Of a DNA stretch of 64,000 bases, positions 11,801 through 48,959 are shown piece by piece. Origin of the DNA: Proteobacteria bacterium CG1_02_64_396 (lineage in GTDB: Bacteria; Pseudomonadota; MNWR01; CG1-02-64-396); NCBI GenBank assembly GCA_001872725.1, contig MNWR01000029.1, forward strand, positions 1 to 64,000, in the 5' to 3' direction. The notes under the pieces were generated by a model. The model made no database searches, had not been told where the DNA came from, and saw only the letters and a program-made list of their open reading frames with translations. A program made the position numbers and the translations under genes. Every line of letters begins with the position of its first letter. The stretch's first letter is position 1.

Positions 11801-12757
11801 GAAGAAGTTGCTGTGGAAGGCGCTGCCCCGGAAGAGCCCTTCGAGCACCTGACGCAGCGGCGCCCGCAGTGCGGCCATCCGCGACGGAAAGAGGAAGAAG
11901 CGGTCGACCTCGACCGGGTCGCCCCCCTCCCGGCCCGCCGCCTGCAACTGCAACCGTTTCAGCCCCTGTCCGACCTGGACGCAGGCCTCGTCGACCCAAT
12001 CGGGCAGGAAGGTGGCGTCGAGGGAATAGGGGTTGGACCAGCCAAACATCTGCTTGAGGTGGGCCGGATCCATCCGCGACCAGAAGGGACCAAACCCCTC
12101 GACGGCGTCGCACTGGGTGACCACCACATAAACCGGAAAGGTGAATTCGAAGCGGCGTTGCAACTCCAGCAATTGACCGTATTGCCGTTCGGCCCAGCGG
12201 CGCAGCTCGGCGGGGCTGCCCCCCAGCAGCAGGGGGGCCGGCAGGGCCAGGATCACCCCGTCCAGGGGCCGCTCGGGGCGGCGGTCGAACAGCCCCGCCA
12301 CCACCCGGTTCCAGGCCAGGCGGGTTTCGGGATCCTGGCTGTCGGGGGCGACCTCCAGCTCCAGGTCGATCAGCAGCCCCTGCTCGTAATAGACGAATTG
12401 AGTCCCCGGCAGGGCCAGGGCCGCTTCCTGGGGCGAGAGGGTTTCCCGGCGGCTGGCCCCCCCCGAGGCGGCCAGGGAGCTGCGGCCCGAGCCGGTCGGC
12501 CCGAGCAGCACGATCCAGGGGGCGCGGTAGCGCCATTCCCGACGTTGGGCCAGGGTGCGCACCCCCGCCATCAGGCGGGCGAGTTGGCGGGCCAGCCCCT
12601 GCAACCACCGCAACAGCAAGGGGGGCTGGGCGGTCGCCCCCCCCGCTGCCCGCTTGGGCGCCTTGGGTTTGAGCAGCCAGCCAATCGCCAAGGCGATCAG
12701 CAGCACCCCCGCCGTGAGGCTGGCGACCCCAAAAAGCGAGATGGACGCGAAGTTCAT
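8834..12757 (-). CDS. tssM: T6SS inner-membrane protein TssM (IcmF family)
   Basis: TssM is the large membrane-complex component that spans from the inner membrane to TssJ at the outer membrane. The 1307 residues begin with a transmembrane helix (about 6-28). A Walker A P-loop GPTGSGRSS follows at about 86-94, and WYDRR/DRRPERPLDGVIL-type segments are typical of the IcmF GTPase-like domain. A further hydrophobic helix lies near residue 385 (TVALFALLCTWLAF). The long periplasmic region ends with the conserved WPLLR-like block (FVDGPWALLRLIAEH). Length is normal. The start overlaps tssL by four bases (ATGA) and the end overlaps tssA. Confidence 0.95.
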   Translation of the reverse strand: MNFASISLFGVASLTAGVLLIALAIGWLLKPKAPKRAAGGATAQPPLLLRWLQGLARQLARLMAGVRTLAQRREWRYRAPWIVLLGPTGSGRSSLAASGGASRRETLSPQEAALALPGTQFVYYEQGLLIDLELEVAPDSQDPETRLAWNRVVAGLFDRRPERPLDGVILALPAPLLLGGSPAELRRWAERQYGQLLELQRRFEFTFPVYVVVTQCDAVEGFGPFWSRMDPAHLKQMFGWSNPYSLDATFLPDWVDEACVQVGQGLKRLQLQAAGREGGDPVEVDRFFLFPSRMAALRAPLRQVLEGLFRGSAFHSNFFMRGLYFTGAVAGSGVLEGDPRSDVAFVPELLENKVFAETNLARATRQGILSRHTAIRRIQLGTVALFALLCTWLAFDANRLVGQVDRTLGALDMVKDHKIGAPHSHGACVGRETSYALQDRIAQIDAHMSYPTIPVSWFDRRHEDTVSSRLSYEALRQVIFPELRCQLEARARNLLLDATPPDPKLSAPVVAQGWQQLILNRATALTEFERFNKLYWTVAYDYSASDPAPLLEMYKALSLYLYDEPLPSSVNNPDGLFRKALMEVEDKTPVQTPQGMHDTASQSLLTWGVQSQQGLFAQLDRGAEDLTQMRHAKGDNPATLADFSAWMGWIESSWLGSDAQHNPCLDIAQGMAPALKSLKGFDYPAATLDDVAALFGNDRCFQPAMTRLAAIPGPANAPLFSLRDGQWRLAEGAARERDQLVAASGLNFMQRNTADQMVCRVPLQGWDEGKLRAAMAALREYDAFAVAAADPDAPPTLGERLAKRRLAGVTNELLTQAQIGADLAWQTEVAVSPLAALEGAVRQQGGDFGRIKGDLVMLIAMLGQHGLETQAAQLTQCARDFAGDTLANIEALARASHLYRVPFHPVGTADPPETLLANLGSPPQVQELLDRQLQRAQVLGGYAAPFVNFLLNSQQIDDTHLGNRETAAYWGNTITELNRFVQFKEPSGQVAHLDDWIAKQLQPMTLGGCAADLKNHTSPPFGNDLFSLHRATLERQTASLCKARKEAVLDAGYQALAHAFNQSLAGRFPFGDDPSRPAPLLATRQFFLDYAQQRQGLLDEVKTTQGERWRQAERFLHRLDKAAAFFAANLAATPGSQSVGLHPTFRAFEDGTPAWHVSDQLLDWRLHSGQESATFPNDVRNLNWGFGQPVSLDFNWADRSSILPKKDPAQPSLSVDGPHATFFVDGPWALLRLIAEHRPTSRPPVDPLDPTTLALVFEVPVELPEGDNGAKVGRMFLALQLLGTDPTSGQPAPLTLPDFPIRAPLAW

Positions 12758-13608
12758 CCCGCCCTCCCCGTGGTGGTCGGAGCGGAGACCTGCCCCAGGG
12801 TATTGAAGGGGTTGATGGCGACGAACCAGACCGCCGTCGAGATGGCGACGTAGAGGCTGGCAGCGACCACGGCCCCGAACAGCCAGGGGCGCAGCGGGGC
12901 CAGACGCTGCCCGGTCGATTCGCTCAAGGTGTAACGGTAGGCCTGTTCAAAGGGGGGCAGGCTGCCTCGGGCGGTGGCATCGGCGCCGATGAAACGCAGC
13001 AGGCGGCGCCGGTAGTCGGCCAGCCCGGTTTTGCCTCGGCTGCCCCGGTATTTGCCTTGAAAACCGAGGTGCAGCGCCATCAGGAAGACGGCGGCCAGCT
13101 CCTCGTTCAGGGGGTTGTGGGAGCGGTCGGCCAGCAGGGTGTCGAGCCGGGCAAAGAGGTTTTCCCCCGACTCGTCGCTGTTGAACATGGCCCTCTCGAT
13201 CAGGTAGTGGGGCCAGTGCAGCGCCCCTTTCCATTCCAAATCGAGGATGAACAGCTCGTCGACCTGGGCCGCCATGACGTAGACGGCGCCGCGATAGGCG
13301 GCGATCCGCTCGGCGCTCGACTGCGCCTCGACCTGTTGTTGCTGGCGGCGCAGCAGTCGGATCAGCCGGTCGCTGACCATCGCCGCCAGGTCGTTGCCGT
13401 TCTGCACCAGGGTCAACGGTTGCTCCCCCTCTTGCCCCTCTTGCGGCGTCTGCGCCTGCCCATCGGGCGCACCCCTCCCACCCGTCTCCCGACTCAGGAA
13501 AAGGGGGAGTTGTCCCGCCGCCTGGGCCTGTTTGATCCGGGCGACCTCTGCGTAGAGGTCGCCGTACCAGGCCAGCAAGGGGCGGTCGCCGGTGAAGGGA
13601 TCAGCCAC
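12754..13608 (-). CDS. tssL: T6SS protein TssL (DotU family)
   Basis: TssL joins TssM in the inner-membrane complex and contacts the baseplate through its cytoplasmic hook domain. The DotU pattern is visible: YGDLYAEVARIKQ, AAYRGAVYVMAAQVDELFI and EWKGALHWPHYLIERAMFNS, then FLMALHLGFQGKYRG. A single C-terminal membrane helix (WLFGAVVAASLYVAISTAVW) anchors it. Residues about 40-65 form a Gly/Gln/Pro-rich insert. There is no peptidoglycan-binding extension. It starts at a GTG that overlaps the tssK end by eight bases; 284 residues is normal for the short form. Confidence 0.95.
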   Translation of the reverse strand: MADPFTGDRPLLAWYGDLYAEVARIKQAQAAGQLPLFLSRETGGRGAPDGQAQTPQEGQEGEQPLTLVQNGNDLAAMVSDRLIRLLRRQQQQVEAQSSAERIAAYRGAVYVMAAQVDELFILDLEWKGALHWPHYLIERAMFNSDESGENLFARLDTLLADRSHNPLNEELAAVFLMALHLGFQGKYRGSRGKTGLADYRRRLLRFIGADATARGSLPPFEQAYRYTLSESTGQRLAPLRPWLFGAVVAASLYVAISTAVWFVAINPFNTLGQVSAPTTTGRAG

Positions 13609-14956
13609 GGGGCGCCTCGTTCTGGGTGCGGTAGAGCAGGATCGCGGCAGGGCTGCCGACCCCCGGTCCCTCTATGGTCAAGGTCGAGCCGTCGGTGAAC
13701 ATCCGCACCAGTTTTTCTTTGCCCCCCTCCTCCAGGGTGACGGTGCGGTCGGTGATCGCCAGCAGCAGACCGCTGGCCTGTAGGGCGATCTCCCCCACCT
13801 TGGCGGGATCGGGTTTGTCGAGCAGGGCGCCGCGCAGACGGCGGCGGCGCAGCTCGGGCAGCAGGATCTTGTCGCCGATGCGAGTTTGGCTGGCCCAGCG
13901 GGCGATCTCCTCCTGGCTTTGCCCCTTTTGCGGGCGCAGCTCGATGACCAGGTCGCCCCCCATCCCCTCGGGGAGCTTGCGCTGAAAGGTCCCCCCCTCG
14001 ATCCGCTCGAAGGGGAAGATCTCGAAGGTGGTTTTCTGCCGCTCCAGGATCGACCCGACGTGGGCGATCAAGGCGCTGAAGCCGGGGATGCAGTGGTTGT
14101 GGTCGTAGGGCAGCGGCTTGGGGGGGATGGGTCGGGTGTCGAGGGCGGCCAGATGCCCCGCCGCCTGAGCCAGCGCCAGATACAGGTCGAAAGGGTGGGC
14201 GGCCGGGGTCTCGACCCAGACCTCAAGGGGGGGAAGGGCTGCGGCCAGGGGGGTAAGCAGGGTGCGCCCCCCTTGGGCGCCGCCGCCGTCGCCTCCGGCC
14301 AGCTCCTTGAGTTTGTCGCGCAGCGCCACCGTCATGGTCTGCAACCGGCTCGGCAGCCCCTCCTCCCCCAAAAAGGGGCAGGCGTCGGCCCGCAACATGG
14401 GGGGATGAAAGGGGGTGAGCTCCAGCTGTTTTTTCTCGTTGCGGCGCACCTCGACCAGGGGAATCGAGACATATTTGGCCGAGGGTTTGCCGTCGAACAG
14501 CGCCAGCACCGGGCGCAGGCGGCTCAGGGCGATGGTCGACTGGCCGGTGTTTTCATCCCGCGCCTGGGTGCCGACCGGGATATACCGCCCCGCCTCCCGC
14601 CCCTCGCCGGGTTGAGGGACCGCCAGGTAGATGCGGGCGGTGGGCTGTTCATCCCAGGGGTGATCCTTCAGGTCGCAGACCAGGGTTTGTCGTTCGTCGG
14701 CGGCGGGGAAGCGGACAGCCAGCCCGTCGGGCATGACGGCGTGCAGCAGATCGACGCGCACCTGCCCCTTGTCGAGCACTCCGGTGTCGATGCCCAGACG
14801 CAGCACCCCCCAGAAATAGGGGTGGTTGCGGGCGCTCAGGTGGAGCTGCTGCCGCTGCCAGTACAGGTCGCTCTGTTGCAGGTGCTGGGGGCCGAGCAGC
14901 ATCCCCTCACTCCACTGCACCGCATCGGATGGGGCGATGTCCCAGGGGGTCGTCAT
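13601..14956 (-). CDS. tssK: T6SS baseplate protein TssK
   Basis: TssK is the trimeric baseplate subunit that docks the baseplate to TssL/TssM. The family signature is at the N-terminus: VQWSEGMLLGPQHLQQSDLY followed by YFWGVLRLGIDTG. Further TssK-like segments include AKYVSIPLVEVRR and ALIAHVGSILERQ. The 451-residue length is typical. The ATG overlaps the tssJ stop in an ATGA junction, placing it in the tssJ-K-L-M-A block. Confidence 0.95.
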   Translation of the reverse strand: MTTPWDIAPSDAVQWSEGMLLGPQHLQQSDLYWQRQQLHLSARNHPYFWGVLRLGIDTGVLDKGQVRVDLLHAVMPDGLAVRFPAADERQTLVCDLKDHPWDEQPTARIYLAVPQPGEGREAGRYIPVGTQARDENTGQSTIALSRLRPVLALFDGKPSAKYVSIPLVEVRRNEKKQLELTPFHPPMLRADACPFLGEEGLPSRLQTMTVALRDKLKELAGGDGGGAQGGRTLLTPLAAALPPLEVWVETPAAHPFDLYLALAQAAGHLAALDTRPIPPKPLPYDHNHCIPGFSALIAHVGSILERQKTTFEIFPFERIEGGTFQRKLPEGMGGDLVIELRPQKGQSQEEIARWASQTRIGDKILLPELRRRRLRGALLDKPDPAKVGEIALQASGLLLAITDRTVTLEEGGKEKLVRMFTDGSTLTIEGPGVGSPAAILLYRTQNEAPRG

Positions 14957-15414
14957 GGTGGGCTCTCCTTCGGGGGAGGCGGAATTTCAAAAGCTTGGGC
15001 GCTGACGCGGCTTAGGTTGATCTGGGCGTGCAGCAGCGGGGTCAGGTCGAGGGCAGCCCGACCTTGGGGATCGCGCAGGTTGGGGTAGGCGATCACCTTG
15101 TAGGCGCACTGCGACCCCTCGGGCAGCGGCACCGGGTTGATCCAGTCGCCGGGGGGGACTTGCAACGAAACCACCTTGAGGGCGCCGGGATGGCGTCCCA
15201 TCAGGGTTGGTTTGTTGGCGAACCAGTCCCCGGCGTTGTCGGGCATCGCGGTGATGGCGGCGTCGTCGAAGACGAAGACGATGTCGACCCAGGTGGCCAT
15301 GCGTTCGTTGGCATCGGGGGCCGCCACCACCCGCAGCCCCATCAGGGCGGTCGGGGGGGGAGAACACCCCGCCAGAACAAGCAGGAGTAGGGTGGATAAG
15401 CGCAGCGCATCCAC
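14953..15414 (-). CDS. tssJ: T6SS outer-membrane lipoprotein TssJ
   Basis: TssJ is the outer-membrane lipoprotein of the T6SS membrane complex. A lipoprotein signal ends in the lipobox VLAGC (LSTLLLLVLAGCS), and the mature part keeps the TssJ pattern: two-sheet beta fold with VDIVFVFDDAAITAM and PEGSQCAYKVIAYPNLRDPQ. The start used here is a GTG that lies inside a dispersed repeat (15387-15423), so the first codons of the signal peptide are repeat-derived. An ATG 63 bases further up (15477) would add 21 residues and is the alternative. No good ribosome-binding site is seen for either. About 250 bases separate it from the PAAR-like gene. Confidence 0.85.
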   Translation of the reverse strand: MDALRLSTLLLLVLAGCSPPPTALMGLRVVAAPDANERMATWVDIVFVFDDAAITAMPDNAGDWFANKPTLMGRHPGALKVVSLQVPPGDWINPVPLPEGSQCAYKVIAYPNLRDPQGRAALDLTPLLHAQINLSRVSAQAFEIPPPPKESPP

Positions 15415-15423
15415 CAGCAGGCG
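15387..15423. repeat. Dispersed repeat (GGTGGATAAGCGCAGCGC), copy 1
   Basis: GTAGGGTGGATAAGCGCAGC followed by GCATCCACCAGCAGGCG. GGTGGATAAGC and GCATCCACC form an imperfect hairpin. A near-identical copy is at 15588-15625 and an inverted, diverged one at 48931-48959. This copy overlaps the 5' end of tssJ. Confidence 0.75.
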
Positions 15424-15587
15424 CCCCACGCGGCCCCCAACACCCCACTTCGGCGCGGACGGCCCCGGCGCACCCATCAACCCTTGGCAGAGGGGGTGGC
15501 TTTGTGCCCCCGCCGGTAAATCCCCCCCGACCCCCCTTTGGGAAGGGGGGCAGGCGAAGGGGGTTGCTTGTGGGGCGGCGGTGTTGT

Positions 15588-15625
15588 GTAGGGTGGATAA
15601 GCACAGCGCATCCACCAGCAGGCGC
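15588..15625. repeat. Dispersed repeat (GGTGGATAAGCGCAGCGC), copy 2
   Basis: Same sequence as 15387-15423 with one or two changes, 201 bp away and in the same orientation. The DNA between the copies is Pro/Gly-coding-like but has no credible gene. The pair separates the spike genes from tssJ and may mark a recombination junction within the operon. Confidence 0.7.
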
Positions 15626-15668: not shown

Positions 15669-16049
15669 TCATCGCAGCACCATGGCGCTGAACTGTCCGG
15701 GAATCAGGCTCATGCCGACCCCGTCGCTCAGGTCTTGCAGGCAGGGGTCGCAGGTGCTGCGGGTCGGACCGGGTCCGATCATCAGGCAGGTACTGCCGAA
15801 AATGCTGACGTCGGGGCCGGTGTTGATCCCCGAGGCGACCCCGAGACCCATCTGATCGCCCAACCCCACCGTCCCCACATCGAGCATGTTCCCCCCCAGC
15901 CCCGGACCGATAATGACCTGGAAATTGGTCGGGATATGGGTGATCGAAAAGGCGAAGTTCACCGTGACGATGGGGATGCCGATGTAGGTCACCACCGGTT
16001 CCAACGGTTCGATTTGAGTGGTCAGGGTGTTGTTGATCGGTCCCGGCAT
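15669..16049 (-). CDS. PAAR-like protein (DUF4150-like), candidate spike tip
   Basis: A 126-residue protein starting MPGPINNTLTTQIEPL. The second half has the layout of PAAR-like/DUF4150 proteins: GLGDQMGLGVASG, then SIFGSTCLMIGPGPTRS, then DGVGMSLIPGQFSAMVL, in which short turns alternate with beta strands. Such proteins cap the VgrG trimer and sharpen the spike. Two Cys residues (CDPC) are present. It directly follows the DUF3540 gene in a DUF2169-pentapeptide-DUF3540-PAAR order, an arrangement known from T6SS clusters. No C-terminal toxin domain is fused. Confidence 0.65.
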   Translation of the reverse strand: MPGPINNTLTTQIEPLEPVVTYIGIPIVTVNFAFSITHIPTNFQVIIGPGLGGNMLDVGTVGLGDQMGLGVASGINTGPDVSIFGSTCLMIGPGPTRSTCDPCLQDLSDGVGMSLIPGQFSAMVLR

Positions 16050-16052
16050 CGC

Positions 16053-16609
16053 TTACCCCATGTGGATCTGGTCGGCGTCGACCCTGATGTGCTTGTCGGC
16101 GGTGATGACCCCGTGGCGGCTGTGCAGGCGCAGCAGGGTCGCCGCCTCCAGGGCGAACGATCCAAATTTGCTCAGCTTGTCGGCCGCCCGCTCCACCACG
16201 GTTTCGAGCACCGTGGTGAAGAGATTGCGGGCCGCCAGATTCAGGGTGCCGGTGGCGGCGGTCAGCTCGGCGTCGCGGCGCGAGTGCAACGCCAGCGATT
16301 GACTCGCCTCGATCCGCACCGTGGCCTGGCTCAGGTGCAGCGACTCGGCCCCCGGTACCGTCAGGTGCGCCGTCCCCCCCGCGCTGCGGGTCAGCACCGC
16401 CAAGATCCACCCCTCCCCCCCCCCCCCCCCGTTGTCGCCAGCACCCGGTCCCCCGGCTGGGGTTGCAGCAGGCAGCTCGCCGCGAGGGGGAGGCTCCGTC
16501 CGTCGTCGAGCACCGCCCGCCCCCCTTGCAGGGCGACCACGCGGGCCTCGACGCCGAGCAGGGCGGGGGCGGGGTGGGGCAGGGGCAGCAGGCGGGGTAG
16601 GGCGCTCAT
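16053..16609 (-). pseudogene. DUF3540 family T6SS protein, frameshifted at a 16-base G/C run
   Basis: The N-terminal half starts at 16609 (MSALPRLLPLPHPAPALLGV) and reads to LLQPQPGDRVLATTGGGG, then leaves frame and stops at 16391. The C-terminal half (LAVLTRSAGGTAHLTVPG, then VRIEASQSLALHSRRDAELT) is open in another frame and ends at 16053. The break coincides with a 16-base homopolymer at 16415-16430; 14 or 17 bases would restore one frame of about 185 residues. DUF3540 proteins accompany DUF2169 and PAAR-like proteins in T6SS operons, probably as spike or adaptor factors. The start overlaps the upstream pentapeptide gene (ATGA). Real slippage or a sequencing error are both possible. Confidence 0.8.
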
Positions 16610-17685
16610 GGGTTCAGCTCCATTTCAAGGCTCAAGGCTTCGGCCTGGGCCAGCTTTTTGTGGGTTTTTTCAGCCGTCGCGGTGTGGGCGCCGAGCAGGG
16701 CGCGGTTGGGCAGATCGGTGCAATGCAGCTTGGCGCGGCTCAGATTTGCCCCGCCGAAACGACAATCCCGGTCGCCGTGCAGGTGGGACAGATCGGCGTG
16801 GCGCAGGTCGGCGGAGCCGAAATCGCTGCCTTGGTGGGAGGAGTGTTTCCAGAAGCTCATGGCCAGTTTCGTCCCGCGCAGATCGACCCCGGCCAGGCGC
16901 GCCTTCTGGGCGACCGAGGCGGTCAGGTCGGCGCCGCGCAGGTCGGTGTCGACCAGGTCGGCCTCCAGCAGCAGGGTGTGGGGGGCGTGCAGGTTTTCCA
17001 TGTGGGTGCGGTGCAACTTGGCCCCCTTGAGGTTGCCCTGGCTCAGGTCGGCGCCGCTCAGGTCGGCGTCGCTCAGGTCGCAATCCATCAGGGTGCAGCG
17101 GGGCAGGCTGGCTCCCGCCAGGTTTTGCCCGGCCAGATTGCAGCCGATCCACAGCGACTCCAGCGCCGACAGCCCGGTGAGGTTGCAGGTGGTCAGATCG
17201 GCCTGATGAAAAACCGCCTGATGCAGGTAGGCCCCCGAAAAATCGGCCCCCTCGAAGCGGCATTGCAGGGTGGAGACCTTGAACCAGCGGGTTTGCCCCA
17301 GAAGGGCGCCGCTCAGGTCGCTGGCGACCCACTGGCACAGGCTGGGGCTGGCGCCGCGCAGGTCGGCGCCGCGCAAATCGCTTTGGGCCACGGTCAATTG
17401 CTTGAGGGGGCGGTCGCCGAAGCGGGCGCCGCTCAGGTTGCAGGCGACGAAGGCGGCCCGGTCGAGCTGGCAGCCGGAAAGATCCAGGCCGCTCAGGTCG
17501 CACTCGTGCAGCGCCGCCTGCCCCAGGCTCGCCCCGCCGAGGCTGGCGCCGCGCAGATCGCACTTGAGCAGCGCCGCTCCGGCGAAGTCGACGCCGTTCA
17601 GGTCGAGCCCGGTCAAAGACCGTTCGTGGATCGGTTTGCCCCGGCGCAGCAGGGTTTGGAGTTCGTCGCAGGTTATGGGGGTCAT
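16606..17685 (-). CDS. Pentapeptide repeat protein, T6SS-associated
   Basis: A 359-residue protein. After a short leader (MTPITCDELQTLLRRGKPIH) nearly the whole length consists of A(D/N)LxG-type pentapeptides, for example SGADLSQGNLKGAKL, TDLRGADLT and GTKLAMS, interrupted by Trp-containing turns. These repeats fold as a right-handed beta helix. The start was set at the ATG that overlaps the upstream stop (TGATG), not at upstream codons in non-protein-like sequence. It is sandwiched between a DUF2169/pentapeptide gene and DUF3540. The family's place in T6SS spike loading is inferred from context. Confidence 0.85.
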   Translation of the reverse strand: MTPITCDELQTLLRRGKPIHERSLTGLDLNGVDFAGAALLKCDLRGASLGGASLGQAALHECDLSGLDLSGCQLDRAAFVACNLSGARFGDRPLKQLTVAQSDLRGADLRGASPSLCQWVASDLSGALLGQTRWFKVSTLQCRFEGADFSGAYLHQAVFHQADLTTCNLTGLSALESLWIGCNLAGQNLAGASLPRCTLMDCDLSDADLSGADLSQGNLKGAKLHRTHMENLHAPHTLLLEADLVDTDLRGADLTASVAQKARLAGVDLRGTKLAMSFWKHSSHQGSDFGSADLRHADLSHLHGDRDCRFGGANLSRAKLHCTDLPNRALLGAHTATAEKTHKKLAQAEALSLEMELNP

Positions 17686-20303
17686 CAGGCCACCGCCCCG
17701 AATGCGGTTTCGACAGCGCCCCTCAGATCGGCGTCGTCGAACAGGGCGTGCCCCCGCTCCAGCCGCACCAGATTGGCCCCGCGCAGGTCGGCCTGGGTGA
17801 AGTCGGTCTTGCGGGCCAGCGCCTGGAAGAGGTTGGCCTGGCGCAGGTCGGCGCCGATGAACTTGGCGTTGATCAGGATGCAGTGGGGCAGCGCCCCCTC
17901 GACCAGTCGGGCGCCGCTCAGATCGGCGCTGCCCAGATCGCAGCGCAGCAGGCGCACCAACCCCAGCTCGGCCCCGGTTAGATCCGATTCGCGCCACGAG
18001 CTGTTGAGCCCGTGGGTGGCGATCCAACTGGAGGCGCTGAGCGCCCCTTTGTTGAGCAGCGTTTTGGTCAGCTTGGCCCCGTCCCAACGACTGCCCTGCC
18101 CCTGAACCTCGACCAGGATCACCCGATTCATGTGGGCTTGGCTCAGGTCGGCGCCGCTCAAGTCGGCGCCGTTCAAGATCACCGTGTCGAGTGTTGCCCC
18201 CCGCCAGCGGCTGCCGGACGCCTTGAGTTCAAGCAGCGCCCCCTTGGTCATGACGACGCCGTCGAGCACTGCGGCGGTCAGGTTCAGCCGCAGCCCTACC
18301 GCCCGGTTCAAGCTGGCTGCGCTCAGGTCGGCGCCGCTCAAATCGGTGTCGACCAGCATCGCCCCGTCGAGCACCGCCCCCGCCAGCACCGCCCCCGCCC
18401 CCTTCAAATTGCTCAGGTTGGCCTTGGTCAGGTCGGCGCCGTCGAGCCTCGCCCCGCGCAGATCGGCCCCGGTCAGCGCGGCCTCCACCAGCCTGGCCCC
18501 GCGCAGATCGGCGGTTTTCAGGTTGGCCAGCTCCAGGTTGCAGCGGCTCAGGTCGCATCCGCGCAGATCCATGCCGGAGAGATCGACCCCGAGCAGATCG
18601 CGCCCCGCCAGCGGTTGATCCAGGCCGATCCAGCGTTCGACCTTGCGGCGCAGATGGGCGGCAACCTCGGGGCCGGGATGGGGACGGGTCGCCTGCACCG
18701 CCTGGCGCCGGGCCCGATCCTCCAGCCCCTTGATCTTCTCTTGGGCGGCGTCGAGTTGGGCCTGCCGTTCGGGGTCGAGCCCCTCCAGTTCGGCAACCCC
18801 CGCCAGGGGGGAGGGGCGGTCGGGTTCGGCGCGCTCGTCGGCCTCGGCAAGCGCCTTGGCAGGGTCGGCGGGGGGCGGGGGGGCGGCGGCCTGAACCTCG
18901 GCCAGGGGGCCGTTTTGTTGCTGCTCTTTGAGCTCGGCCAGCTTTTGTTGGCCGGTCTGGTCGGCTTCGTCGAGAAGGGCGCGGGCCTTGGTCAGCATCG
19001 CCCCCAGGTCGACTTCGCCCCGCTCCAGGGCGCCGGCGGGGATCACCCCCAGGGGGTTTGGCTGCGCCTTGGGGGGCTGGTAGTCGACCGGTTTTTCCAG
19101 GGGGGACTGAGCCCAGAAATCGGCCTCCATTTCATCGAGCCGCGCTTGGCGCTTGGCCAGGTCCTCGGCCTCGGCCTGCGCCTGGATCGCCTGGCGCAGG
19201 GCCTGTTCGGCCGCGGCGACGACAGGGGTGAGGGGGGCGTCGTCGAAGGCGTGCAGGTGGGCGGTTTTCGGGTCGGTGCGGGCCGCTAGGGTGCGGTGGT
19301 AGTGGGCCAGGTCGCGGGGCGCGTCATGCAGCGACTCGTACCCCCCCAGCAACGCGGCAATGTCTTCGCCGTCGGGGTCGAGGCAGTCGGTTTGGGCGCG
19401 ATAGAGGCAGACTCCGAGCTCCAGGTGGGGGATCAGCCACACCGTGTCAAAAACCGCATCGAGCGCCTGGGCCTCTTCGGGCGACTGACCGACCCGCTGC
19501 ACGAAGATCCGGGGGCGCATGCTCGGCAACATCCCCTCGATCACCGCTTGCGTGGGGTGCAGCCCCTCCAAGCGGTAGGGCTCCCCGCCGGCGAAGAATC
19601 CCTCCATCTGCTGATCGATGGGGGCGGCGTTGAAGGCGGCGGTGTCGCGGTTGCGGGGCATGTTGGGGGCGTCGACCGCCAACCATGCGGCGTCGAAGCT
19701 GCCGAGCAACGCTTGCCGGGCCGGGTGGGTGATGGGGACCGCAACGAACCCCGCCGCTTCGCTCTTTTGGGTGCGGTGGCGGATCGGATCGTCGGGATTT
19801 TCGATGTTGGGCATGGCCCCCTCGCCCGCCCCCCCCAACCGTTTGCCGGTGTAGCCGACCCCGTCGGGATTGCCGAAGTGGTCGGGGCCGCCGAAGGCGC
19901 GTGCGGCGGTCAGCGGCATGGCGGTAAAGGGGGTGGGGGCACAGATCTTTTGCCCCCCGGTCGCGGTCGCCCGCCAGGTGCGGTCGCCGATGATTTTTAA
20001 GCGTTTCGAAATGGGGCCGACTTGAACCGACACCCCCATCGCGGTCACCGCCTTGCCGCCGGGGGGGTAAGCGATGGAGGCCAGCAGCACCTCGCCGTAG
20101 CGCTTGGGATCGAGGGTGTCGAGCGGCTGCTTGGGGGGCAGCGCCTTGAGCGCCTCGGGCCAGCTCTGGTGCACGGCCAAAAAGCGGGGGTTGGGGGCGC
20201 CGAGCTTGAAAAAGCCCATGGCGACCGCCACAAAGTGGTGGCTGCCCGCGTGGGTGAAACAGCGGTGCATCATGGCCAGCGACAGGGGTTGGATCAGCCT
20301 CAT
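17685..20303 (-). CDS. DUF2169 and pentapeptide repeat protein, T6SS-associated
   Basis: An 872-residue protein. Residues 1 to about 300 are a DUF2169 domain (HFVAVAMGFFKL, TWRATATGG, PFTAMPLTAARAFGG, GYTGKRLG, LPNIENP-like MPNIENPDDPI, WLIPHLELGVCLYR). A helical, Ala/Gln/Glu-rich linker follows to about 590. The C-terminal 280 residues are pentapeptide repeats (LLGVDLSGMDLRGCDLSRCN onward). DUF2169 proteins act as VgrG-PAAR adaptors or chaperones in several T6SSs. The start is supported by GAGG five bases upstream; it follows vgrG by seven bases and overlaps the next gene by one. Confidence 0.88.
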   Translation of the reverse strand: MRLIQPLSLAMMHRCFTHAGSHHFVAVAMGFFKLGAPNPRFLAVHQSWPEALKALPPKQPLDTLDPKRYGEVLLASIAYPPGGKAVTAMGVSVQVGPISKRLKIIGDRTWRATATGGQKICAPTPFTAMPLTAARAFGGPDHFGNPDGVGYTGKRLGGAGEGAMPNIENPDDPIRHRTQKSEAAGFVAVPITHPARQALLGSFDAAWLAVDAPNMPRNRDTAAFNAAPIDQQMEGFFAGGEPYRLEGLHPTQAVIEGMLPSMRPRIFVQRVGQSPEEAQALDAVFDTVWLIPHLELGVCLYRAQTDCLDPDGEDIAALLGGYESLHDAPRDLAHYHRTLAARTDPKTAHLHAFDDAPLTPVVAAAEQALRQAIQAQAEAEDLAKRQARLDEMEADFWAQSPLEKPVDYQPPKAQPNPLGVIPAGALERGEVDLGAMLTKARALLDEADQTGQQKLAELKEQQQNGPLAEVQAAAPPPPADPAKALAEADERAEPDRPSPLAGVAELEGLDPERQAQLDAAQEKIKGLEDRARRQAVQATRPHPGPEVAAHLRRKVERWIGLDQPLAGRDLLGVDLSGMDLRGCDLSRCNLELANLKTADLRGARLVEAALTGADLRGARLDGADLTKANLSNLKGAGAVLAGAVLDGAMLVDTDLSGADLSAASLNRAVGLRLNLTAAVLDGVVMTKGALLELKASGSRWRGATLDTVILNGADLSGADLSQAHMNRVILVEVQGQGSRWDGAKLTKTLLNKGALSASSWIATHGLNSSWRESDLTGAELGLVRLLRCDLGSADLSGARLVEGALPHCILINAKFIGADLRQANLFQALARKTDFTQADLRGANLVRLERGHALFDDADLRGAVETAFGAVA

Positions 20304-46437: not shown

Positions 46438-47237
46438 TTAAGAGGGTAGCGCCTCGGGTCGGGTATCGAACACCACGTAGGGGTTGTAGGGGTCGCTGTC
46501 CTCCTCGCGGTGCAGATCGAGAAAATCGAGCCCCTCCCAGAGGTCGAAAAAAGCGGGGGTGTGGTAGAGGACGACGATGCGCCGGGGCTGGGCGGCAAAC
46601 GAGGCGGCCACCCGGTCGACCACCTTCTTCATGGCGATCGCGTTGAAGGGGTTGAAGAGATAGATCAGCAACGGGCCGTCGGGGAGGGGGGTGCGGGTCG
46701 CGTCGGCGCAGAGCAGCTCGACCGGGGTCTGCCGGGGGTAGTCGGGGGGGAGAGCGCCGCCAGGTTGTGTTGGGCAATCTCGACCAGCGAGGGGGCAATC
46801 TCGACCCCGACGATCCGCTTGAAACCGAGCGGCAGCGCCAGGATCAGCATCCGTCCCTTACCCGCGCCCAGGTCGAGGAAGGTGGTGGCGCCAAAATCGA
46901 GATCGAGGCCGTCGAGCAAAGGGGCCAGGTTGCTCAGGGGGGTCGCCTCGTAGCCGAAGCTGTGGATCCACCCCGCCCCGACCGTGTCGAGTTCGGTGGT
47001 TTCAATGATTCCCTCGGTCGTCACCCCGAGCCGCTCGTCGAAATCGAGCCGGGGGGGTGGGGGGGTGGGGATGGTCGTTTCGATCTGGGTCAGCCGCAGC
47101 CAAACCAGCCGGGTCAGATAGCGCAGGGTCGGCCAGGCGCCGTAGAGCAAGACCAAGCGGCGCAACTCGCGCAGGCGGCGGCGCCAGCGGGGGGTGGTGG
47201 GGATCTCAGGGGGCATTTGCGCCGAACGCTGCGACAT
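46438..47237 (-). pseudogene. SAM-dependent methyltransferase, frameshifted at a C7 run
   Basis: The N-terminal part starts at 47237 with a strong GGAGGAGG site and holds the SAM motif TTFLDLGAGKGRMLILAL, then GVEIAPSLVEIAQHNLAALS. Near 46742-46748 the frame is lost in a run of seven identical bases. The continuation (VELLCADATRTPLPDGPLLI, then YLFNPFNAIAMKKVVDRVAA) is open in another frame to 46438. One extra C or two fewer would restore a protein of about 265 residues. Homopolymer error or true mutation are both possible. The start overlaps the fic end by 32 bases. Confidence 0.8.
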
Positions 47238-48723
47238 AGGCCTCCTCCAGGGCGGCGATCTCGGCGGCGCTCAATTCTTGAAACGTCCCCCGCTTGCTGT
47301 TCGAGAGTTTGCCCCCGTTTTGATGCAGCAACTGGATGAACAGCTCCAGCCGCCGGTCGGGCATGTCGACCACCTCTTGCATAGCCCGCCGTGCATTGTC
47401 GTACCCCGCCAAAAAGCGCAGCTCTTCGGCAAGGTCCTCCTCTACTGCGTAGGCCACGGTGTCGCACAGGTACTCGGCTTGCCGGGTCAGGTCGGGGTAG
47501 CGGTAGTACCCCTCGACCTCTTGCGGGTTGTTGATCGTCAGCCGCGCCTCGTCGTCCAGGGTGGTGCGCAGCAGGGGGGCTAAGGGGGCGGAGTACGCCT
47601 CCAGGGCGGCGTCGTAGTCACCCATGCGGCGCAACATGGCGGCCGACACCGGCAGCATCACCCCGGCGGGGGCAACCCCGCCACGCCGTAGAAAATCGTG
47701 AATCAAAAAGCGGTGCAGCCGCCCGTTGCCATCCTCGAAGGGGTGGATGAAGACAAAGCCGAAGGCGACCACGGTGGCATGGACGATGGGGTGGATCCCC
47801 TGGCCGGTTTGGGCGCAACGCGCCAGCCCCCGCATCAGACTCGGGACCAACTCCGGCGGGGGGCAGACGTAGTGGAGGATTTGGCTTGAGCTGTAACCGG
47901 GCCGGGTTTGCCCCACGTAGTTCTGCCAGGAGCGAAACCCCGCTTGGGCGTAGCGGGGATCGACGATGGCCCCTTGCAGGGTTGTCAGGGTCGCCTCTTC
48001 CATCAGGGTTTCGAACGGCTCGTCGCCCGCGCTGCGCAGCAATTCGACGAAGCGCTCGGCCCGTTGCGGCGCCGGGGTTTCGTGCTCGATGCCGTAGGAG
48101 GAGCGGGTCTCCTTTAAATACAGGTAATCGTTGGCCCGTTGAAACAGGGCGGGGGGGAAATCGGCGATCAAGGATTCGATGCGGGGGCGCGGGTCGCGGG
48201 CCATCCGTTCGGCCAGGGCCGAGGTGCGCCGCACGATGGGGCAGTACTCGGGGGTACCGAGCAGGTTGTTGTCGATCTTCCAGCGGGGATCACGCCGCGT
48301 GACCCACCCGATATCCACGGGACCAACCACGTAAATCTGGGGGTCGAGCAAAGGAAGGTACCGCCCTCCGATGGTGGCGGCGACCGGCAGCGTTCGTCCC
48401 AGCAAAAACTCGTACAAAAAGCCGATTTGGCGTAGGTACTTGCTGTTGGGCTGGCGGTCGATGGCGGCGGCAACCTCGGTGGGGTCCAGCGCCTGAAAAA
48501 CCTGCTGGAGCACCGCCAAATCAATGCCGTCGTACTTGAGGGCAAAGACCAAATGGGCGATGGGATCGTCGCCCGGCTGGTATTGAGCCGGGTATTCGTC
48601 GATGTGTCGTCCGTCGGGCAGGGTTTCGCTTTTCAGGCGGGTGCCCAGGCGGGAGGTGTGGTGCAGGGGCAGGCGGGGCAGGGCGAGGTGTTCTTGCAGC
48701 CAGGCGTAGCCAAGGTTGGCCAT
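47206..48723 (-). CDS. Fic family protein
   Basis: 505 residues starting MANLGYAWLQEHLALPRLPL. The Fic core motif FIHPFEDGNGRLHRFLIHDF is intact, with catalytic His. Upstream helices include HAAVVAFG-like IVHATVVAFGFV; the substrate flap region precedes it. The C-terminus (KLSNSKRGTFQELSAAEIAA) is a winged-helix-like end. Fic enzymes transfer AMP or related groups to proteins. No certain inhibitory (S/T)xxxE(G/N) helix was found. Direct repeats before the start suggest self-regulation. The methyltransferase start overlaps its end. Confidence 0.88.
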   Translation of the reverse strand: MANLGYAWLQEHLALPRLPLHHTSRLGTRLKSETLPDGRHIDEYPAQYQPGDDPIAHLVFALKYDGIDLAVLQQVFQALDPTEVAAAIDRQPNSKYLRQIGFLYEFLLGRTLPVAATIGGRYLPLLDPQIYVVGPVDIGWVTRRDPRWKIDNNLLGTPEYCPIVRRTSALAERMARDPRPRIESLIADFPPALFQRANDYLYLKETRSSYGIEHETPAPQRAERFVELLRSAGDEPFETLMEEATLTTLQGAIVDPRYAQAGFRSWQNYVGQTRPGYSSSQILHYVCPPPELVPSLMRGLARCAQTGQGIHPIVHATVVAFGFVFIHPFEDGNGRLHRFLIHDFLRRGGVAPAGVMLPVSAAMLRRMGDYDAALEAYSAPLAPLLRTTLDDEARLTINNPQEVEGYYRYPDLTRQAEYLCDTVAYAVEEDLAEELRFLAGYDNARRAMQEVVDMPDRRLELFIQLLHQNGGKLSNSKRGTFQELSAAEIAALEEAYVAAFGANAP

Positions 48724-48768
48724 GGGTAATCCCCTTAGCGCAATCAATCGTTCCAAGGGGCGGCAAGG

Positions 48769-48832
48769 TGCAATAAAACGTTCTGCCGTGCAACAAAACG
48801 TTTCAAAAAACAGATTCATGCAACAAAACGTT
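48769..48832. promoter_or_regulatory. Three TGCAAYAAAACGTT direct repeats upstream of fic
   Basis: Copies at 48769-48782, 48789-48802 and 48819-48832, spaced 20 and 30 bases apart, so they lie on one helical face. The last is part of a perfect palindrome (GCAAC-N5-GTTGC). They sit 46-110 bases upstream of the fic start and look like operators for one regulator, possibly the Fic protein itself through its C-terminal winged helix. Confidence 0.65.
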
Positions 48833-48930
48833 GCGACGGAGGTTGGGTGGGCTGTGGGAGCGGACTCCTGTCCGCGAAGCCTTTTGCTGTGAAAGCCAGC
48901 GGGGCGGCGGGGGTGGTGGAACTGCGGTTT

Positions 48931-48959
48931 GGTGGACGTGCTGCGCTTATCCACCCTAC
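48931..48959. repeat. Dispersed repeat (GGTGGATAAGCGCAGCGC), inverted copy
   Basis: GGTGGACGTGCTGCGCTTAT followed by CCACCCTAC is the reverse complement of the repeats at 15387 and 15588 with a few changes. It lies in the 302-base gap between fic and htpG. A further hairpin (GGACAAGTCCGACAGGTCAG with its mirror) at about 48978-49018 could end the htpG transcript. Confidence 0.65.

Follow-up and report, generated by a model that had tools for sequence, protein, structure and literature searches.

The window (the whole stretch of 64,000 nucleotides analyzed here) carries the T6SS genes tssJ, tssK, and tssL, with a gene for a PAAR-like protein upstream, and contains three copies of a short palindromic repeat, one of which lies at the 5' end of tssJ (Table 1). 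A DUF3540 gene (16053-16403) and a gene for a pentapeptide-repeat-like protein (16606-18087) are found further upstream; together with the PAAR-like gene, these genes resemble a spike/adaptor module of a T6SS.

Table 1. Coordinates of the genes, repeats, and signal features in the window
Feature	Position	Strand	Remarks
tssL (DotU)	12754..13608	-	
tssK	13601..14956	-	TIGR03353; overlaps the end of tssJ
tssJ, drawn from GTG 15429 (158 aa)	14953..15429	-	assigned from codon scoring, homolog alignment, and fold
Lipobox LAGC	15364-15375	-	Cys codon at 15364-15366
Predicted lipoprotein signal, MGRLLVDALRLSTLLLLVLAG-C	15364..15429	-	predicted by the lipoprotein rule; invariant Cys
REP, perfect consensus copy	15387..15415	+	minus strand read in the tssJ frame
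In-frame ATG	15475..15477	-	non-coding-like sequence from here to the REP
Second REP copy, one mismatch	15588..15616	+	intergenic; 52 bp beyond the end of the PAAR-like gene
PAAR-like protein gene	15669..16049	-	upstream of tssJ; matches PF13665 weakly, below the curated cut-off
Third REP copy, two mismatches	48931..48959	-	intergenic, with htpG on one side and a Fic-domain gene on the other

Identification of tssJ

Judging from its modeled structure, the gene flanked by tssK and the PAAR-like gene is tssJ, and its product would have the transthyretin-like fold. Sequence searches with the protein against Pfam, NCBIfam, and PDB gave no match, including PF12790 and TIGR03352. The protein was aligned with 16 proteins from other bacteria whose genes lie immediately upstream of tssK; eight columns were invariant, and the lipobox cysteine was present in all 17 sequences. 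The AlphaFold model built from this alignment had a mean pLDDT of 92.4, and a fold search with the model gave TssJ1 from Pseudomonas aeruginosa (3ZHN, E 2.5e-5) at the top, followed by the Serratia protein Lip (4A1R), with SciN (3RX9) also listed. No more than two of the 16 homologs match TIGR03352, and these only weakly; thus, the library models of TssJ do not cover this clade. This constitutes an annotation gap, as TssJ of the clade is missed by PF12790, and almost wholly by TIGR03352, despite a clear TssJ fold.

Identity and distribution of the repeat

The original prediction described a 20-mer that occurs twice in 240 bp and once more at 48.9 kb. We found the 20-mer at all three sites, exactly at 15387-15406 (+) and 48940-48959 (-) and with one mismatch (GCACAGC) at 15588-15607 (+), so that the copy at 15588 is inexact. 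Shuffled windows contained no matches. The 20-mer is, however, only part of a 29-bp unit, GTAGGGTGGATAAGCGCAGCGCATCCACC, consisting of a GTAG head and a hairpin, and the repeat is far from being limited to three copies: a search of the genome with the 29-bp unit gave 62 copies with up to three mismatches, 36 of them perfect. The reversed unit, used as a control, had no copies in the genome, and at up to three mismatches the unit itself was absent from 397 other genomes of the phylum. Comparison of the flanks indicated that the copies are sharply bounded.

The repeat belongs to the RAYT-associated GTAG-type REP elements. The defining features of this class have been described (Nunvar 2010, PMC2817692; Di Nocera 2013, PMC3733652), and we observed the following ones. 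The unit is an imperfect palindrome of 29 bp, within the 20-40 bp of the class, in which GUAG stays unpaired beside the hairpin. The copies are dispersed, are mostly intergenic, and form dimers or BIMEs in alternating orientation; head-to-head pairs with spacers of 10-20 bp occur on contigs C17, C25, C27, C32, C36, C50, and C65. A cognate RAYT (REP-associated tyrosine transposase) gene lies between REPs on contig C53 (NF047646, E 3.9e-57), with copies on its two sides at 17482(+), 17555(-), 18156(+), and 18337(+).

An exact period of 181 bp was observed in the REP arrays at C39:33336-33726 and C53:18156-18365, both at contig ends; the assembly was probably interrupted there by longer tandem BIMEs. 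The stretch upstream of the tssJ copy was compared with these copies as a possible longer unit, and the alignment scored no better than those of shuffled sequences; a longer unit was therefore rejected beyond AGCAGG. At C61:14300-16300, another RAYT-like gene has on its flanks a palindrome unlike the first, GTGGCCTCCTACGA...TCGTAGGAG, in copies regularly spaced at about 100 bp, so that the genome apparently has a second REP/RAYT pair.

We trained a codon-usage gene scorer on the genes of the window and applied it to the surroundings of the 62 REP copies. Fifty-five copies are intergenic, three supply a TAG stop codon to the adjacent gene from the GTAG head (C69:11344, C31:8552, and C76:28986), and three touch the start of a gene; only the copy at tssJ is intragenic, lying within a codon-scored gene. 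Where both neighboring genes were called (45 copies), 35 copies are located between co-directional genes.

The three copies at gene starts belong to gcvH, a gene of the globin family, and queG. We considered them as N-termini of these genes and rejected this, as each gene has its own in-frame ATG a few codons after the REP; these REPs are most likely extragenic. The third copy in the window is 66 bp beyond the 3' end of htpG and upstream of the Fic-domain gene. A mechanically predicted ORF (47206-48954) appears to begin inside this copy, though the REP is extragenic; it was likewise rejected as the N-terminus of the Fic-domain gene, since it falls outside the gene.

The two copies near tssJ have the same orientation and share 38 bp, that is, the 29-bp unit plus 9 bp (AGCAGGCGC). 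A second dispersed repeat, of the AAATCCCCCCCGACCCCCCTTTGGGAAGGGGGG type, occupies 15505-15550 between them and is also found on contigs C101, C100, C40, and C62 and at C29:88339.

The REP in the tssJ reading frame

In the frame of tssJ, the minus strand of the REP reads GTG-GAT-GCG-CTG-CGC-TTA-TCC-ACC-CTA-C, or V/M D A L R L S T L, and is followed by LLLVLAGC. The REP lies in frame within the predicted signal stretch. The in-frame start codons are ATG 15477, GTG 15429, GTG 15414, and then ATG 15342, which is already past the cysteine; no ATG, GTG, or TTG exists in this frame between the REP and the lipobox cysteine. Since that cysteine is invariant, any TssJ that is a lipoprotein must translate the REP, no matter which of the upstream starts it uses, and the REP almost certainly forms part of the translated export signal. 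The repeat corresponds to codons 1-9 from GTG 15414 and to codons 6-14 from GTG 15429. The earlier claim that VDALRLSTL runs directly into the lipobox was thus borne out, whereas the claim that these are the first residues of the protein holds only if GTG 15414 is the start.

We then applied a PROSITE-type lipoprotein-signal rule to the candidate starts. Both GTG codons pass, with the cysteine at residue 17 or 22 and an arginine within the first seven residues. No convincing Shine-Dalgarno site was seen at any of the three candidates upstream of the cysteine, and the pairing energies do not separate them. Translation presumably starts at GTG 15414 or 15429, both of which are good candidates, and the product is presumably exported and lipidated.

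Origin of the signal peptide

These results support a predicted TssJ signal peptide that derives in part from a repeat. We consider it quite probable that a REP inserted at the 5' end of tssJ and is now part of its type II (lipoprotein) signal peptide. A 29-bp RAYT-associated GTAG-type REP would have entered in an orientation and a frame without a stop codon, and would have replaced an older start of tssJ. If translation begins at GTG 15414, the start codon itself, the sole basic residue (R5), and the beginning of the hydrophobic stretch would all come from the REP; if it begins at GTG 15429, the REP would give residues 6-14 of the 21-residue signal. LLLVLAG-C and the mature TssJ domain would come from the ancestral gene. 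The idea that a noncoding repeat had been captured as an export signal is supported in that the repeat falls within the part of the signal that must be translated, but the repeat may have been tolerated there rather than captured.

A search with the TssJ protein in 60 relatives recovered only the window's own gene. No close relatives of TssK were present in GTDB contigs; the best showed 37-39% identity and are too far for an empty-site comparison. Because these searches turned up no close relative whose tssJ is uninterrupted, the insertion itself is something that we infer. The signals of the distant relatives in the TssJ alignment are unrelated and free of the repeat, and are mostly about 17-34 residues long. 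The same signal without the repeat, the outcome expected to refute the original prediction, was not seen among them. Such unrelated signals fit the replacement of an n-region, without proving it.

The REP may act mainly at the RNA level, the hairpin over the start of tssJ throttling translation and the coding role being incidental. This is compatible with insertion into the signal and seems rather unlikely as the main effect. The RNA hairpin of the tssJ copy is stable (-13.2 kcal/mol, z -4.2) and contains the start codon if this is GTG 15414, and REPs have been proposed as RNA control elements (PMC3733652). Against this, the tssJ REP does not deviate from the consensus and shows no sign of tuning, and the whole region of 146 nt folds no better than shuffled sequences. 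The hairpin (-13 kcal/mol) also counts against the repeat-derived signal peptide itself, because GTG 15414 would be poorly accessible within it.

Translation from ATG 15477, the start singled out for testing in the original prediction, would give a signal of 37 residues with a long polar n-region and with the REP inside. This codon is an in-frame ATG with AAGGG just upstream, and in some TssJ relatives the apparent signal is 30-34 residues long; nevertheless, codon statistics and the lipoprotein rule disfavor it, and we regard its use as unlikely. The codon score was +0.44 bits/codon after the REP and +0.43 over the REP, but fell to -0.11 in the stretch that separates ATG 15477 from the REP. 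A score this low is reached by only 1.2% of 21-codon coding windows, and none of the training genes starts so low, although codon evidence on such short stretches is weak in absolute terms. From this start the cysteine would be residue 38, with no lysine or arginine in the first seven residues, which is outside the lipoprotein rule, and the Shine-Dalgarno pairing is just -4.3 kcal/mol. ATG 15477 is thus the least supported of the three candidates.

It is very unlikely that the REP is extragenic at tssJ as well and that its open frame is accidental, a caution raised for many N-terminal REPs (Di Nocera 2013, PMC3733652); TssJ would then start later, either at a CTG or, lacking a signal, at ATG 15342. 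The minus strand of the REP is free of stop codons in every frame, so that an open frame comes cheaply, and the in-frame REPs upstream of gcvH, the globin gene, and queG offer a precedent. Unlike these genes, however, tssJ has no ATG, GTG, or TTG after its REP and ahead of the cysteine; a start at 15342 would remove the cysteine conserved in the 17 sequences, and a CTG start would leave seven residues before the cysteine, too short for a signal.

Decay of tssJ after damage by the insertion is just as improbable: the signal region is interrupted and the start codon is unclear, but the mature domain is of full length, its codon statistics are normal, its TssJ fold is confidently predicted, the neighboring tssK and tssL are intact, and a lipoprotein signal that satisfies the rule is still readable.

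We attach an equally low probability to the possibility that the REP was a functional gain, its hairpin lying over the start codon and metering TssJ synthesis while its frame makes the export signal; if so, a single mobile palindrome would determine how much of a T6SS core lipoprotein is made and where it goes.

Comparison with known systems

The repeat-derived TssJ signal peptide can be compared with several known systems. The element itself resembles the REP of Cronobacter (Enterobacter) sakazakii, GTAGGGtGGGTAAGCGcAGCGCACCCaCC (Nunvar 2010, PMC2817692, Table 1), which has been assigned to GTAG-3 (Di Nocera 2013, PMC3733652). Both are 29 bp long and have the same GTAG head and loop, a cognate RAYT, head-to-head dimers, and intergenic placement, and in both, as reported for other GTAG REPs, GTAG gives TAG stop codons to neighboring genes. 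In sequence, the two differ only at a single stem pair, altered on both sides (G-C to A-T); the host lineage is also different.

The protein shares the fold, the lipobox cysteine, and the gene order tssJ-tssK-tssL with known TssJ/SciN (3ZHN, 4A1R, and 3RX9). It differs in falling outside the Pfam/TIGRFAM models, in its short linker after the cysteine, and in the REP within its signal.

Translated palindromic repeats are known from Rickettsia (RPE-1) and from several REP-rich genomes, sometimes at the N-terminus (Di Nocera 2013, PMC3733652). Published insertions of REPs or MITEs into N-terminal coding sequence include one case in a signal peptide. As in these cases, a palindromic repeat at tssJ would be translated in a cellular protein and near its N-terminus; the tssJ insert differs in that it would be located in a removable (predicted) signal peptide and not in the mature protein. 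Many N-terminal REPs may be misannotations of the start site (Di Nocera 2013, PMC3733652). At tssJ, the evidence speaks against such misannotation, as no start codon follows the REP ahead of the lipobox. Most reported N-terminal REPs have weaker support than the tssJ case, where the reading is fixed by the lipobox cysteine and the absence of a later start. For annotators, gcvH, the globin gene, and queG serve as a warning of this very kind of misannotation, as they look alike, yet in each of them the REP is followed by the gene's own ATG.

The closest counterpart in an export signal is Yersinia YPO1552, whose signal peptide is partly formed by a YPAL/RU-2 element (Delihas 2007, reviewed in PMC2229807). 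In both cases, a dispersed palindromic element would supply part of a predicted signal peptide; in YPO1552, it is a 168-bp element in a hypothetical exported protein, whereas in tssJ it is a 29-bp REP in an identified T6SS core lipoprotein. The tssJ REP is a neat example of something already described and does not amount to a new mechanism. It suggests that a mobile palindrome can be tolerated, or used, inside the export signal of a conserved machine component, and would thus illustrate how loose the constraint on signal peptides is.
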